DNA of 64,000 nucleotides from Candidatus Gallionella acididurans (GTDB taxonomy: Bacteria; Pseudomonadota; Gammaproteobacteria; Burkholderiales; Gallionellaceae), in assembly GCA_001577345.1 (NCBI GenBank), contig LSLI01000008.1:1-64000 (forward strand), in the 5' to 3' direction. Below, in pieces: positions 41,233-45,784 of the stretch (positions are counted from its first letter, which is position 1; every line of letters begins with the position of its first letter). The notes beneath the pieces were generated by a model. It ran no database searches. It was given only the letters and a program-made list of their open reading frames with translations, and was not told the origin of the DNA. A program made the position numbers and the translations under genes.

Positions 41233-41348
41233 TCCGGATGACCCGGAACATGAAGTTGAAAAAGCTGGCGGAATGATTCATTGCGATTTCAGCAGGTTTT
41301 TCAAGGTAACCAAATCGTGCATCACCCATTCACCTTGTTCAACGACTT

Positions 41349-41415
41349 GCCCAACGTTTGAATTCACCGGACTGCGCGGCTTTTCGCGCAGGCCCGGTGG
41401 AATGATTGGTTCGGC
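41349..41415 (-). repeat. attC site of cassette 2 (67 bp)
   Basis: Read on the minus strand, R'' is GCCGAAC (41415-41409) and R' is GTTGGGC (41355-41349), a perfect GTTRRRY core. The inner arms CACCGGGCCTGCGCG and CGCGCAGTCCGGTG pair apart from one extra base and one mismatch, and an AAAAG-type loop closes the hairpin. An unpaired base in one arm is what integrases use to choose the strand. The ATPase stop codon abuts R''. Confidence 0.88.
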
Positions 41416-41416
41416 A

Positions 41417-43087
41417 TCATGCTGGAATACCCTTTCGGTTTGAGTCAATGAGCCATCCTTTCATGTTCTGCATAAAAGTCCAGACATCATCCAACGACGG
41501 CTTTAGGTAGTCAGCAGCGTCTGGATCTTCGCCCATCTTTTCGAATACACTGATCAGCCAAGAAGGCCCATGACCCGAGGCGCCCAAGTGTTTAAGCCAT
41601 GACTCTAACTCTCCACCCGGTACAACAAATATTCCGTATTCGCCAAGTTGCGCCAACAAGTTTTCAGCGGCCTCTCTGTCTGGCTGATTGAGAATAGCTA
41701 TTCCGCCATCGCGTTTCATGTCCCGCCCAGTGCTATCCATCGCTTGCTTAACGGCGCTGCGCATTGTTGCCAACGAACCATGTGCGATCCCCGGAACGTT
41801 CGCTCCAGTGAGCAAGTTTGTCCATGTCGCTCCACTGTCTTTGACGACATCAATGTCCACAATACCGGCGGCCGGAATACCTAGCTTGCGCAAGGGGCGA
41901 AGAATTGTCTGCACCGTCTGCTTGTTTTGGGCATTTATGAATAGGCAGTTTGGAATGCCCCACTCGGGCTTGAATCTTAGGAGGCGCTCGTTAATCTCTT
42001 GGTAAAACGCACGGTCAGCGTCGGACTCGGTTACGACGACAAACTCGTAGAAAAGTCCGCTAAGGACACCCGTTGACCGCAGCAACGGATTTCTCATCAA
42101 CTCCAAAATTTCGGTGCTGGGAAGTACTCTTGCGGTAGCGACACCGCCTCGATAGGTTAGCCGGATGATGTTTACCGGCGCACCTGACTGTATGCAACCC
42201 ATGACAAACGTTGGACTATGTGTGGAGACAAAAACCCTCTTGTCTGCGGTGAGCGCGGCGCGGGATACCTCATATCCAAGCTTTGCTGCTAGCGAAGGAT
42301 GAAGGAACGCCTCCGGTTCGTCGATAAGCAGCACTCGTGGATCACCCGCCATTACTTCGGTAACGATTCCGGTAAATGCTTTTACCCCGTCACTCGCTTG
42401 ATCGATGAGCTGCGCGTTCGCGTGAAACCGGACAGCCTCCGCATGAATTCCGCGTTCCTCCAAATCATTTACCGGAGCACGGCTGGATAGCCGAATGCGT
42501 AATTGCCCCAAGCTAGTTGGATCGATTACGAAATGGGAAGCGAATGCTTCTGAAACGATGCGCCGAACCTCGTGGCGCTTTGCATCGTCGCGGAACAAAA
42601 CTTGGAAACTGGACTGCGGGGCTTGTTGAAGATCGCCAGCACTTTGCTGGTTGACGAGATTGATCCTATTCCGCCCGTCGAGTATTAATGTGCTGTGCGT
42701 CAAGAACCATTGGCAGAAAGCGCCTATGTTCGTTTGAGGGTTCTGTACGAATTGAGTAAGGCTACCGGCAGGCACTTGCTGTCGACCATATCGGCTACCA
42801 ACAAGAATGTGATCGATATTTAGCGCTTCACCAGGATTGGGCGCTTGTTTTATTTGCTCTATGGCTTGGTGCACCTTGTCATCTGCAAGTCCTGCAAACG
42901 CTAGATCGTCGAGAATGACGGCGGATGCGTCCTTCGATCCTCTCCGACAGTACTGCTCGATCTCAGAAAGAACTTTGCTCTTGCCTGAGTTATTGGGCCC
43001 AACGAAAACCGTAACCGGAGTCGTTGTAATTGTCTCAGCAGCAAGCCCAGGAGCTCGTCCGAATTTGAGGTGAAAACTAGAGATCAC
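41417..43087 (-). CDS. Fused ABC-type ATPase/TOPRIM protein, OLD/GajA-like (cassette 2 cargo)
   Basis: This 556-residue protein has Walker A GPNNSGKS at 30-37, an ABC-like signature segment QASDGVKAFTG at 230-240, Walker B RVLLIDEPEAFLHP at 251-264 and the switch His in VFVSTHSP (290). A second domain starts at ~345 with FVVVTESDADRAFY (acidic residue 354), and DID lies at 411-413. This matches the TOPRIM arrangement of OLD-family nucleases (OLD, GajA) and of PARIS-type fusions, which act in phage defence. No UvrD-like helicase (GajB) is adjacent. The GTG start at 43087 has AGGGAG eight bases upstream. The stop TGA is inside the attC border. The anti-phage role is inferred. Confidence 0.82.
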   Translation of the reverse strand: MISSFHLKFGRAPGLAAETITTTPVTVFVGPNNSGKSKVLSEIEQYCRRGSKDASAVILDDLAFAGLADDKVHQAIEQIKQAPNPGEALNIDHILVGSRYGRQQVPAGSLTQFVQNPQTNIGAFCQWFLTHSTLILDGRNRINLVNQQSAGDLQQAPQSSFQVLFRDDAKRHEVRRIVSEAFASHFVIDPTSLGQLRIRLSSRAPVNDLEERGIHAEAVRFHANAQLIDQASDGVKAFTGIVTEVMAGDPRVLLIDEPEAFLHPSLAAKLGYEVSRAALTADKRVFVSTHSPTFVMGCIQSGAPVNIIRLTYRGGVATARVLPSTEILELMRNPLLRSTGVLSGLFYEFVVVTESDADRAFYQEINERLLRFKPEWGIPNCLFINAQNKQTVQTILRPLRKLGIPAAGIVDIDVVKDSGATWTNLLTGANVPGIAHGSLATMRSAVKQAMDSTGRDMKRDGGIAILNQPDREAAENLLAQLGEYGIFVVPGGELESWLKHLGASGHGPSWLISVFEKMGEDPDAADYLKPSLDDVWTFMQNMKGWLIDSNRKGIPA

Positions 43088-43119
43088 GCTACTGCTCCCT
43101 GAAGCTGCTGTTTGATGAT

Positions 43120-43182
43120 GCCGAACGTAAAGTTAAGGGGCGCCGCGCTTCTGCGGCGTCCCTCTTGAACGCAGGGTTCGAC
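43120..43182 (-). repeat. attC site of cassette 1 (63 bp)
   Basis: On the minus strand, R'' is GTCGAAC (43182-43176) and R' is GTTCGGC (43126-43120, contributed by the next cassette after its first G). Inner arms are GTTCAAGAGGGACGCCGC and GCGGCGCCCCTTAAC with an AGAAGC-type loop. The arms closely resemble the well-known aadA-type attC (GTTCAAGCCGACGCCGC / GCGGCGCGGCTTAAC). The nuclease stop codon lies directly before R''. Confidence 0.92.
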
Positions 43183-43183
43183 A

Positions 43184-44044
43184 TCACCCGCGATTCTCGT
43201 AGGCAGCCTTCAGAAGTTCTTCAAGAAGCGGCTTGTGCTTAGCAATGTCTTGAGGTTCCAGTTTGATGCGGTATGCGCCCCATCTCGCGTACTCCAGAAG
43301 ATCAAGGCCAGACTGTTCAAGCTTTGCATCAATACCCTCGTCGCGGGGCAATTTCACGGTAAGGTTCATGGCAGATTTTCTCGGATTGCATGTTGCGAAG
43401 TTGAAGGCTATACCACCGCGCGTAAACCCGATGTACGGTTTGTTGTACTTTAACTCCAGCGAGGGATCAAAGACCTTACACAGTTCCAGAATTTCGTCCG
43501 AGATTTTTACCGTTTTTGCCGTGCCTCTGTTTTCCCAATAAGCTCTATCGGCTGGCTCCAATGCGCCCTCATCTTCATCTACAAGCCCGAGGCGCAATGC
43601 GTCCACAACTTTAGTAAAGTGAAGGCCGATACCGTCTCCGGTGTCGATGGCGGTCATTTGAAGTGCTATTAATGGAATAAAGCCGTTGAACAAACTGATG
43701 ACGTTCAAGAAGCGTGCAGTGACGTTCTCAGCAATAAGAACACCTACATGTTCATGTTGAGGATAGCGACGGCGTTCAATATCCCAATACTCAATGGTTC
43801 GGATGATATGGGTTTCATCTGTGGCGCCAAGCTGCAACTCAGTTTCATACCGAGTAACGCCGTCAATTTCTTTGAATAGTAGATCAAGTCGCCCGCCGGA
43901 AGGTTGAATACGCTCTTTGTCGATTAATACAAGTTCACCCAAACCCAGTATAGATGGATCTGCGGCGATGATTTCTTGAACCCACTTCTCGTTAAGTTGC
44001 GGATGATGTTTAATCGAAATGGTTTTGAGCGGAATATGTTTCAT
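43184..44044 (-). CDS. PD-(D/E)XK nuclease-like protein of unknown function (cassette 1 cargo)
   Basis: This soluble 286-residue protein has a restriction-endonuclease-like core around residues 18-90. RLDLLF with Asp54 is followed by YETELQLG with Glu69-x-Gln71, fitting D...(D/E)xK-type sites. A conserved block HIIRTIEYWDIERRRYPQHEH and a DNA-repair-like FLNVISLFNGFIPLIALQM follow. The C-terminal ~90 residues (MNLTVKLPRDEG...LDLLEYARWGAYRIKL) look like the DUF5655-type domain often attached to such nucleases. I recognise the family as widespread but unnamed. It starts 30 bases inside the cassette, downstream of an AAGGAG that is somewhat distant (13 nt). The function in defence is inferred. 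Confidence 0.7.
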   Translation of the reverse strand: MKHIPLKTISIKHHPQLNEKWVQEIIAADPSILGLGELVLIDKERIQPSGGRLDLLFKEIDGVTRYETELQLGATDETHIIRTIEYWDIERRRYPQHEHVGVLIAENVTARFLNVISLFNGFIPLIALQMTAIDTGDGIGLHFTKVVDALRLGLVDEDEGALEPADRAYWENRGTAKTVKISDEILELCKVFDPSLELKYNKPYIGFTRGGIAFNFATCNPRKSAMNLTVKLPRDEGIDAKLEQSGLDLLEYARWGAYRIKLEPQDIAKHKPLLEELLKAAYENRG

Positions 44045-44074
44045 GATCTCGTGAGTACTCCTTGTGATGTCGAA

Positions 44075-44173
44075 CGTAAAGTAGACACCCTAAAACACGC
44101 CTGCAAAGGCACCTTCAAGGCATATAATCTGAACTGCAATCTGCAATGCCCCGTTTTTAAAGGAGGTAAAATT
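44075..44173 (-). promoter_or_regulatory. Probable attI region and intI promoter
   Basis: This 99 bp lies between the intI start and the first cassette, where an attI recombination site is expected. Its cassette-proximal edge is ACTTTAC followed by the G of the G^TT crossover (44075). It contains TATAAT (44123-44128) on the plus strand, a good -10 for intI, and AGGAGG (44161-44166) as ribosome site. I could not identify a convincing cassette promoter or LexA box. Confidence 0.6.
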
Positions 44174-44374
44174 ATGGCACACCCTAATTTTTCCGATAAA
44201 AGCACCACGCCAAACTCCCCAAAATTGCTTGACTAAGTGTGTGATAAATTGCGCGTGAAGCTCTGCCGCATTCACACCGAACAAATCAGCGTGGACTGGA
44301 TTAAACGCCATATCTTCTTTTCCGGCAAGCTCTGCCGAAACTGGCTGATACACCCGGCCGATGGGATTGTTTAG
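44174..44374 (+). pseudogene. intI: Integron integrase (IntI) N-terminal remnant
   Basis: The frame starts at ATG 44174 behind a perfect AGGAGG. It reads MAHPNFSDKSTTPNSPKLLD, then a TAA (44234-44236) where a Gln is expected, then VCDKLRVKLCRIHTEQIS and VDWIKRHIFFSGK. KLLDx(V/L)(R/C)(D/E)(R/K)(I/L)R, TEQxxVxW and IxFxGK match the N-terminal core-binding start of IntI (compare LDQLRERIRYLHYSLRTEQ). Similarity stops near 44330, where an 11 bp repeat AAGCTCTGCCG (first copy 44258-44268, second 44327-44337) suggests a deletion. The frame closes at TAG 44374. The whole catalytic domain (R..H-R..Y) is missing, and glmU starts 48 bp on. Confidence 0.85.
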
Positions 44375-44399
44375 CCGCATAGCCGCTTTCCTTTATAAT
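44371..44399 (+). promoter_or_regulatory. Putative glmU promoter
   Basis: A perfect -10 TATAAT (44394-44399) lies 23 bp before the glmU ATG, with a weak -35 (TTAGCC, 44371-44376) at 17 bp. It directly abuts the end of the truncated integrase. Confidence 0.55.
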
Positions 44400-44422
44400 C
44401 GCGATATTCAACAAGGCCAAAC

Positions 44423-45784
44423 ATGACCCCGTTAAATATCGTCATCCTCGCTGCCGGAAAAGGCACGCGCATGTATTCCGAAAAGCCCAAGGTGCTGCAC
44501 GCTCTGGCGGGCAAGCCGTTGGTCCAGCATGTGCTGGATTGCGCCATCTCACTTCAGCCGCAACAGGTTTGCGTAGTGTACGGGCATGGCGGGGAGGCTG
44601 TGCCGCAGGCGATGTCGCAATATGCAGCCAGATTCGTCATCCAGGAACCCCAGCTCGGCACCGGCCATGCGGTGCAGCAGGCGATGCCCCATCTCGGCGA
44701 TGAAGGCACCACGCTTGTGTTGTATGGCGATGTGCCGCTGATTCAGCACGGCACGTTGCACCAGATGCAGCAGGTGGGTAACGGCCTGGTGTTGCTGACT
44801 GTGAATCTTCCCAATCCATCCGGCTACGGGCGCATCGTGCGCGATGCGCAGGGCGATGTGCTTGCCATCGTCGAGGAAAAGGACGCCACACCCGAGCAAC
44901 GCGAGATTCGCGAAGTGAACACCGGCATCCTTCTCGCACCGACGAAAATGTTGCGCGGCTGGCTGGCCAAGTTGCAGAACAACAACACCCAGGGTGAGTA
45001 CTACCTTACCGATATTGTCAGTATGGCGGTGCAGCAGGGCGTCGCGGTGCATACCGTGCAACCGGCTCAGGAATGGGAGATACACGGGATAAACAGCAAG
45101 TCGCAACTGGCGGTGCTGGAGCGCACCTGGCAACTGGTCGAGGCTTCTCGGTTGCTGATCAAAGGTGTGACGCTGGCCGACGCGTCGCGCATCGATGTGC
45201 GGGGCAAACTGAATTGCGGGCGCGATGTCGAGATCGATGTCGGCTGTATCTTCGAGGGCAAAGTGAGCCTGGGCGACAATGTGCGGGTGGGCGCTTACAG
45301 CGTGATCAGGAATTCCAGCATCGCAGCCGGCACCGAGATCGCGCCATACAGCCACATAGACAGCAGCGAAGTGGGGGCTAACTGCCGTATAGGTCCCTAC
45401 GCCCGATTGCGTCCCGGCACCAAGCTGGGCGACGAGGTGCACATCGGCAATTTCGTCGAAGTCAAAAACAGCGAGATCGCGGCAAACAGCAAAGCCAACC
45501 ACCTCAGCTACATCGGCGACAGCACGGTCGGCAGCCGCGTGAACGTCGGTGCGGGCACGATCACCTGCAACTACGATGGCGTGAACAAGCATCGCACCGT
45601 CATCGAGGATGATGTGTTCATCGGCTCGGACACGCAACTGGTCGCGCCGGTAACGGTGGGCAAGGGCTCGACGATAGGCGCGGGTTCGACTATTACCCGC
45701 AACACGCCCGGGAATGAGCTGACGCTGTCGCGCAGCAAACAGGTGACCGTTGCCGGATGGAAGCGGTCGGCCAGGAAAAAATAA
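44423..45784 (+). CDS. glmU: Bifunctional GlmU (GlcN-1-P acetyltransferase / GlcNAc-1-P uridyltransferase)
   Basis: This 453-residue enzyme makes UDP-GlcNAc for peptidoglycan and LPS. The N-terminal pyrophosphorylase domain has [26 protein letters not shown] and LYGDVPLI. The C-terminal left-handed beta-helix consists of hexapeptide repeats ([28 protein letters not shown]) and has the acetyltransferase site NFVEVKNS and [11 protein letters not shown]. It ends in the usual Lys/Arg-rich tail. glmS, the earlier enzyme of the pathway, follows. Confidence 0.97.

Follow-up and report, generated by a model that had tools for sequence, protein, structure and literature searches.

The ATPase-TOPRIM gene and its integron setting

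The gene considered here lies on the minus strand of a 64,000-nucleotide stretch of DNA from Candidatus Gallionella acididurans (contig LSLI01000008.1), which we refer to as the window. Its open reading frame is intact and encodes a putative nuclease of 556 residues, in which an ABC ATPase is followed, in the same chain, by an OLD-type TOPRIM domain. The gene belongs to a small array (41233-44423) between a LytTR response regulator gene and glmU. The features of this array are given below; z values for attC sites compare folding of the site with that of shuffled sequences.

41349..41415, minus strand: attC of the ATPase-TOPRIM cassette; hairpin z about -3.0 over 41349-41418; 58 of 67 bases the same as in the Limnobacter attC
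41417..43087, minus strand: ATPase-TOPRIM gene, 556 amino acids, GTG start, AGGGAG-like ribosome site upstream
43120..43182, minus strand: attC of the preceding cassette; z about -2.3 over 43103-43182; agrees with the box rule
43184..44044, minus strand: gene of the preceding cassette, 286 amino acids; weak DUF5655 match, PD-(D/E)XK-like motif by eye
44070..44173, no strand assigned: attI region, part of the 272-base match to genome G405 described below
44174..44340, plus strand: relic of the start of an integron integrase gene, with an in-frame stop, truncated, divergent from the cassettes

With an attC on both sides of the gene, and the array next to attI, the preliminary description of this DNA was right to call the gene an integron cassette. 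It also called the cassette mobile, which needs qualifying, as the local integrase gene is broken. The attI region and the integrase relic, together at about 44070-44340, were absent from that account. They were recognized from a 272-base match (75.7%, E 5.6e-51) to the stretch before, and the start of, the intact intI of a genome of the same genus, G405, and from a tblastn match of the relic to the integrase of G404 (60% over 35 amino acids, E 1.7e-6); the relic alone has no Pfam integrase match. In the sister genomes G404 and G402 an intact intI lies directly before glmU. Because the relic holds that same place in the window, the array reads as a two-cassette remnant of a chromosomal integron that has lost its integrase.

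The synteny break is on the regulator side, the intI-glmU side being common to the window, G404 and G402. In eight genomes of the genus, the response regulator and glmU share no contig in six, and in the other two they are separated by about 190 and 230 kb; the genes beside the regulator in six such genomes, like those before glmU in five, differ from those of the window. Elsewhere in the window's own genome, a second integron integrase piece, C-terminal, is cut by the end of contig C96 (L092, 4894-5325), and a further attC-like match is found on contig C71. A further candidate for half of an integron integrase, a fragment with which contig C58 begins, was dropped after its sequence had been read.

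The 286-residue product of the preceding cassette scores 21.6 bits against DUF5655, below the 24-bit cut-off, and may possibly be a nuclease, judging from its sequence. A 53% homologue of this protein is encoded on a Priestia megaterium plasmid.

Catalytic residues and predicted fold

Conservation was assessed in a family alignment of 71 members, consisting of the window protein and 70 of the 80 loci kept from GTDB; the loci omitted (L036, L039, L050, L053, L056, L063, L064, L076, L089 and L090) are mostly truncated, broken or near-duplicates. The residues concerned are listed here with their positions in the window, Ts OLD being the Thermus scotoductus protein, whose residues are taken from PMC7049728.

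42977..43000, minus strand: Walker A, residues 30-37 (GPNNSGKS); G30, N32, G35 and K36 invariant (71 of 71)
42386..42394, minus strand: ABC signature core S232-D233-G234 (71 of 71)
42311..42334, minus strand: Walker B, residues 252-259; D256, E257, P258 and E259 invariant
42218..42220, minus strand: switch histidine H290 (71 of 71)
41588..42055, minus strand: predicted OLD-type TOPRIM domain, about residues 345-500, placed by Pfam (345-413) and by comparing a model of residues 325-556 with the PDB
42026..42028, minus strand: TOPRIM acid E354, counterpart of Ts OLD E377 by sequence alignment
41849..41857, minus strand: TOPRIM D411-x-D413, counterparts of Ts OLD D431 and D433 (71 of 71)
41603..41611, minus strand: TOPRIM E493-L-E495, at the positions of Ts OLD S478-x-E480 (71 of 71)

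The Walker A, signature, Walker B and switch histidine motifs reported earlier are therefore all invariant across the family. The N-terminal part of the protein matches Pfam AAA_21 (57.5 bits) and AAA_15 (45.8 bits), both above cut-off. The match to OLD-like_TOPRIM over residues 345-413 reaches 22.8 bits, 0.4 bit below the 23.2-bit cut-off, and the same model is matched at E<=0.01 by all 71 members of the alignment, the best at 3.5e-9. D358, D411, D413, E493 and E495 are present in all 71 and E354 in 70, and these six residues account for six of the 11 invariant columns in a wider TOPRIM alignment of 54 rows that takes in more distant members. When the window gene is compared with that of Limnobacter, pN is 0.088 and pS 0.82; therefore, the reading frame and its motifs are not a product of chance, and the protein is under selection.

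A TOPRIM metal site had been expected beyond residue 345, and, judged by sequence and model, it is present there. From an alignment with P2 Old and with the published Ts OLD site (PMC7049728), the metal A residues are E354, D411 and D413, and those of metal B are D358 (four residues past E354, aligned with Ts OLD D381) and E495, all paired by sequence alignment and not by coordinate superposition. One site differs in kind: at metal B, E493 replaces the Ts OLD serine (S478). P2 Old also has acidic residues at the same TOPRIM positions, with Glu at that of D358 and Asp at that of E493. No invariant basic residue follows E495 in the 71-member alignment, and Ts R487 (Bp K562) has no clear counterpart there.

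The full-length model has a mean pLDDT of 92.4. When it was compared with the PDB by Foldseek, the leading matches were retron Eco8 effector chains (E 3e-11), with Ts OLD in seventh place (3e-9) and GajA in eighth (1.6e-8); the alignments span 573-641 columns with gaps, and their TM-scores are 0.3-0.4, low values that perhaps result from differing domain placement. The first VIA-align list for the full-length model was filled by ATPase matches, and therefore the C-terminal half, residues 325-556, was modelled apart (pLDDT 93.1). In a VIA-align comparison of this half covering Foldseek's first 1000 chains, the best 23 rows were all OLD, GajA, retron Eco8, retron Eco2 or PARIS entries (Z 10.3 to 6.3), and the first unrelated row had a Z of 5.4. 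The likeness to OLD, GajA and PARIS proteins that had been proposed from the sequence is thus borne out for the predicted fold of the TOPRIM half, with these entries ranked above the unrelated chains aligned. The highest values were obtained with the C-terminal regions of Burkholderia and Xanthomonas OLD (6nk8, Z 10.3 over 150 residues at 3.1 A; 6njw, Z 10.1 over 156 residues at 3.3 A), and lower ones with Ts OLD (6p74, Z 8.9 over 143 residues at 3.4 A), GajA (up to 8.9, 184 residues, 4.0 A) and PARIS (8ux9, 7.6). The window protein is predicted to share its TOPRIM fold with these three OLD structures, but at only 17% identity over aligned residues. Plain Foldseek with the TOPRIM half alone gave nothing below E 0.001, its first two matches being 6nk8 (0.013) and 6p74 (0.064). 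For the ATPase half, the best-aligned structures are heads of SMC, cohesin and Rad50 (Z from 16.5 down to about 14), and a viral structure library returned ATPase-type matches, including three large AAA domain protein/ATP-dependent endonuclease entries (Catovirus, Terrestrivirus).

Relatives, partners and genomic settings

Among GTDB species genomes, 444 of 493 pattern matches were confirmed as relatives, and 80 of these were kept. The best are from Limnobacter humi (85% identical) and Rhodanobacter (84%), and records named Nostoc, Leptolyngbya, Flavobacteriales, Planctomycetota, Neobacillus, Bacillus and Spirochaetes show 42-66% identity. The gene is rarely found in the class to which the window genome belongs (2 of 274 genomes with the window's own counted), and a tblastn search with the window protein against 72,556 plasmids gave seven records, none of them enterobacterial.

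The best PADLOC model for the window protein is Old, at 74.2 bits, followed by AriA and NsnB, and the Old model is matched at E<=1e-5 by all 71 family members. On the same model P2 Old scores 712 bits, YbjD 84 and a Gabija GajA 111, the last reaching 1081 bits on its own PADLOC model. The profile search suggested in the preliminary description thus names Old as the best defense model, but with a score about that of YbjD and well short of that of P2 Old; since YbjD, an OLD protein to its authors, itself scores only 84, the Old score alone decides little. The best PHROG is phrog_4747 for both the window protein (59 bits) and P2 Old (727 bits). Scores against PADLOC AriAB (41.6 bits) and NCBIfam retron_eff_Eco8 (28.5 bits, against a cut-off of 250) are lower still than that for Old. 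No end-to-end match to the protein was found among the Pfam, PADLOC, NCBIfam and PHROGs matches listed, and no dedicated model for this branch was seen in the libraries searched; it may be, as these searches suggest, that profile libraries undercount OLD-type genes of this sort.

In a tree of 40 proteins, the window family and its distant relatives from viral contigs and plasmids fall on one side and P2 Old, YbjD and GajA on the other. Support for this split is 1.00 in FastTree, run on the full alignment, and 100 by UFBoot in IQ-TREE, run on 522 of 958 columns. The side of the known classes comprised P2 Old, YbjD, three OLD proteins for which the fetched stretch shows no adjacent helicase, and seven GajA proteins from Gabija, two of them identical; the tree was built without retron and PARIS (AriA) proteins. 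Because the tree separates the window family from P2 Old, YbjD and GajA, the family is related to the known classes but is not nested in any of these three, and the window gene and its several hundred relatives form their own branch of the OLD family. Of the expected clustering with OLD, GajA and PARIS proteins, relatedness to OLD and GajA therefore holds, while in this tree, to which PARIS did not contribute, the family stands apart from the group made up of P2 Old, YbjD and GajA. The suggestion of a compact variant has to be given up, since 556 residues is about the length of class 1 OLD proteins (586 in P2 Old, 552 in YbjD) and the protein stands outside the same group. A compact GajA or a P2-type Old protein is ruled out by the trees, the lack of GajB and the profile scores.

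The family nevertheless shares features with several known systems. Like P2 Old, it is a stand-alone ATPase-TOPRIM gene, but it differs in its separate branch of the tree, in its much lower score on the Old model and in its signature, which is S/G-D-G in the window family and G-H-G in P2 Old. GajA, of Gabija (class 2 OLD), is also an ATPase-TOPRIM chain but is adjoined by GajB. The retron Eco8 effector (class 3 OLD) is the best full-length structural match, but the window protein falls far below the cut-off of its profile, and no reverse transcriptase is found among the nearest genes in the window, which are the DUF5655-like gene and the LytTR response regulator. PARIS could be compared by profile and TOPRIM fold, without AriA in the tree; its AriB protein cuts tRNA by means of a TOPRIM domain (PMC12409363). 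YbjD (OldB) of E. coli is a stand-alone ATPase-TOPRIM protein with an anti-phage phenotype on expression (PMC13261556), but it is on the side of the known classes in the tree, and its gene is chromosomal, between aqpZ and ybjX, and not a cassette. IbfA and HEC-04, likened here by description only, are each a single gene combining ATPase and TOPRIM with an anti-phage phenotype (PMC12111858).

The gene has no fixed partner, and by context it resembles class 1 OLD in this respect. With six GajB probes, each of which finds all six of the other Gabija loci, no GajB relative was detected in the window or at any of 121 family loci, in agreement with the earlier observation that the gene stands without GajB. 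Among 677 neighboring ORFs within 4.5 kb at 78 loci, the widest protein cluster was shared by just five loci and looks like ABC transporters; no conserved partner was seen.

Two settings recur among the relatives. The first is prophages: 46 IMG/VR contigs carry relatives, and in 20 of 44 viral loci (the 46 minus two partial ones) the fetched stretch of a few kb contains homologues of the P2 packaging or replication genes Q, P or A. Of the 21 loci in the closer group (L099-L119), eight have gene Q. At L103, L105 and L112, the first two of which look near-identical, gene A lies on the other side of the relative from Q, which places these three relatives in the interval where phage P2 carries old and tin. 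Rousset and colleagues described that interval as a hotspot of anti-phage systems (PMC9122126). By Pfam, 114 of 151 neighbor ORFs at 18 viral loci include terminase or portal families, each matched by 3-4 members, and two matches to P2 replication protein A. Ten neighbors compared with PHROGs gave four P2-type portal proteins, one each of an origin-nicking protein, a head protease, a Sak4-like protein and a DNA methyltransferase, one member of families of unknown function and one without a match. P2 genes are absent from the surroundings of all 77 genome loci, and a search of 50,697 phage records gave no match.

The second setting is integrons. The Limnobacter humi copy has an attC on both sides and an integrase start at the edge of the locus (56% over 139 amino acids); genes for a CBASS-type cyclase (285.8 bits) and NucC (299.3 bits), both by PADLOC, lie between the integrase start and the cassette (L011, 3531-5073). 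Of the 77 loci surveyed for attC (L050, L056 and L064, cut by contig ends, were omitted), L067 is the second with an integrase homologue (43% over 300 amino acids). Sites at L017, L020, L024 and L036 are attC both by a positional rule and by eye, L063 retains the start of the attC shared by the window and Limnobacter, and L012 has a degenerate one; most of the 77 loci have none. The positional rule, which misses the Limnobacter site because its last box deviates, selects 5 of 77 loci and, among control ORFs, 15 of 799. Of the five loci, L042 is not attC-like by eye, and one of the control matches, at L017, seems to be a genuine attC belonging to the same array. In a loose scoring scan true sites were not separated from background, with scores of at least 10 at 3 of 77 loci downstream, 4 of 77 upstream and in 1.7% of 1987 random pieces. 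A stricter scan recovered the window site together with six single matches elsewhere, none of them at accepted sites.

Probable function and its alternatives

We suggest that the window gene probably encodes a stand-alone OLD-type enzyme that acts as a one-gene anti-phage (or anti-mobile-element) system, an ATPase-gated TOPRIM nuclease. We favor this reading because the protein is kin to phage-defense proteins and because some relatives lie where P2 keeps its anti-phage genes. In such a system, an ABC ATPase of the SMC/Rad50 kind would be joined to a two-metal TOPRIM nuclease and would keep it inactive until a host repair complex, or the structure of DNA, is altered by infection. Once released, the TOPRIM domain would cleave DNA or tRNA, and as a consequence phage growth would stop or the cell would die. 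The analysis establishes the architecture, the predicted fold, the conserved metal and ATPase residues, selection on the protein, the lack of a fixed partner, the cassette status and the place of some relatives at a phage defense hotspot, and from there we infer the nuclease activity, its control by ATP, the trigger, the target and the defense itself.

The anti-phage role put forward in the preliminary description is therefore retained as probable, in view of the prophage and integron settings. Against it, the immediate neighbors are not enriched in defense genes. In tallies by PADLOC family (E<=1e-15), the 134 nearest neighbors gave 52 families and the 102 far neighbors of the same loci 33, always with a single member per family. 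OLD proteins with roles outside defense also weigh against this reading. The broad but sparse spread of the family also counts against a defense reading to some extent, since it would suit any mobile accessory gene. No experiment on the family, which has no name to search by, was found among the open-licence papers listed.

Four other explanations were weighed against an anti-phage nuclease. The gene could encode a genome-maintenance enzyme, a Rad50- or RecF-like ATPase with a nuclease, that rides on mobile elements and serves DNA repair or replication restart. The affinity of the ATPase half for SMC, cohesin and Rad50 heads would agree with this, as would archaeal Cran1, which indicates that OLD proteins can hold cell-cycle roles (PMC12796447). 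We nonetheless regard it as improbable, since the gene is sparse and has no conserved neighbors, and since a place at the exclusion-gene site of some prophages is unlike that of a housekeeping repair gene.

Integrons and prophages favor stabilizing or addiction-type genes, and the protein could be a guard nuclease of this kind, killing cells when the integron, the prophage or host repair is disturbed and excluding phages only as a by-product. P2 Old offers a precedent, in that it kills recBC mutants and needs both its ATPase and its nuclease activity to do so (PMC7049728, PMC10568477). This explanation overlaps mechanistically with that of an ATPase-gated anti-phage nuclease, but no conserved antitoxin-like partner accompanies the gene, and we consider it unlikely too.

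It is less likely still that the two cassettes form one system with the 286-residue protein as the partner. The two genes are adjacent, on the same strand and first and second after attI, but each has its own attC, and a homologue of the upstream protein was found at 0 of 121 family loci; nor is any accession common to the seven plasmid records of the ATPase-TOPRIM gene and the best 12 of 14 of the upstream gene. We therefore rejected a two-gene system as unlikely. A decaying, silent passenger cassette without present function is the least probable of all: the integrase is broken, and a simple scan for promoters detects none immediately ahead of the gene on the strand that encodes it, but the frame is open over its full length with all motifs present, and constraint since the split from Limnobacter has been strong, although this mostly reflects history elsewhere.

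Neither integron defense cassettes (PMC12444791) nor single-gene ATPase-TOPRIM defense, as in IbfA, HEC-04 and YbjD, is new in itself, and what our analysis adds is the separate branch, its two recurrent settings and an explanation of the window array. No description of an OLD-type cassette in an integron was found among the open-licence papers listed. We would give even chances to a broader proposal, namely that the family is a separate, unnamed OLD class, spread across many bacterial phyla, that provides one-gene, helper-free phage defense and that entered P2-like prophages, at the old locus, independently of its entry into the integrons of several lineages. The P2-type, Gabija and retron classes of OLD would then be joined by one more. 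Broad defense by a partner-free OLD protein was named as an open question in a 2023 review (PMC10568477), and single-gene examples have been described since then (YbjD, IbfA and HEC-04). A widespread, partner-free and conserved branch, with copies in integron arrays (one of them beside a CBASS pair) and in the defense slot of P2-like prophages, would offer naturally occurring examples on which to test what inputs to the ATPase, and what targets of the TOPRIM domain, are sufficient.

Two plasmids encountered in the course of this work carry genes of separate interest. The relative on a Paracoccus versutus plasmid (L145, 2989-4667) is annotated as two genes, an ATPase and a hypothetical protein, and its frame therefore seems to be broken in mid-gene. 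On an Enterobacter asburiae plasmid (L154, 986-6441), a Shedu nuclease gene lies directly before a pair of genes for an OLD-type ATPase and a helicase.
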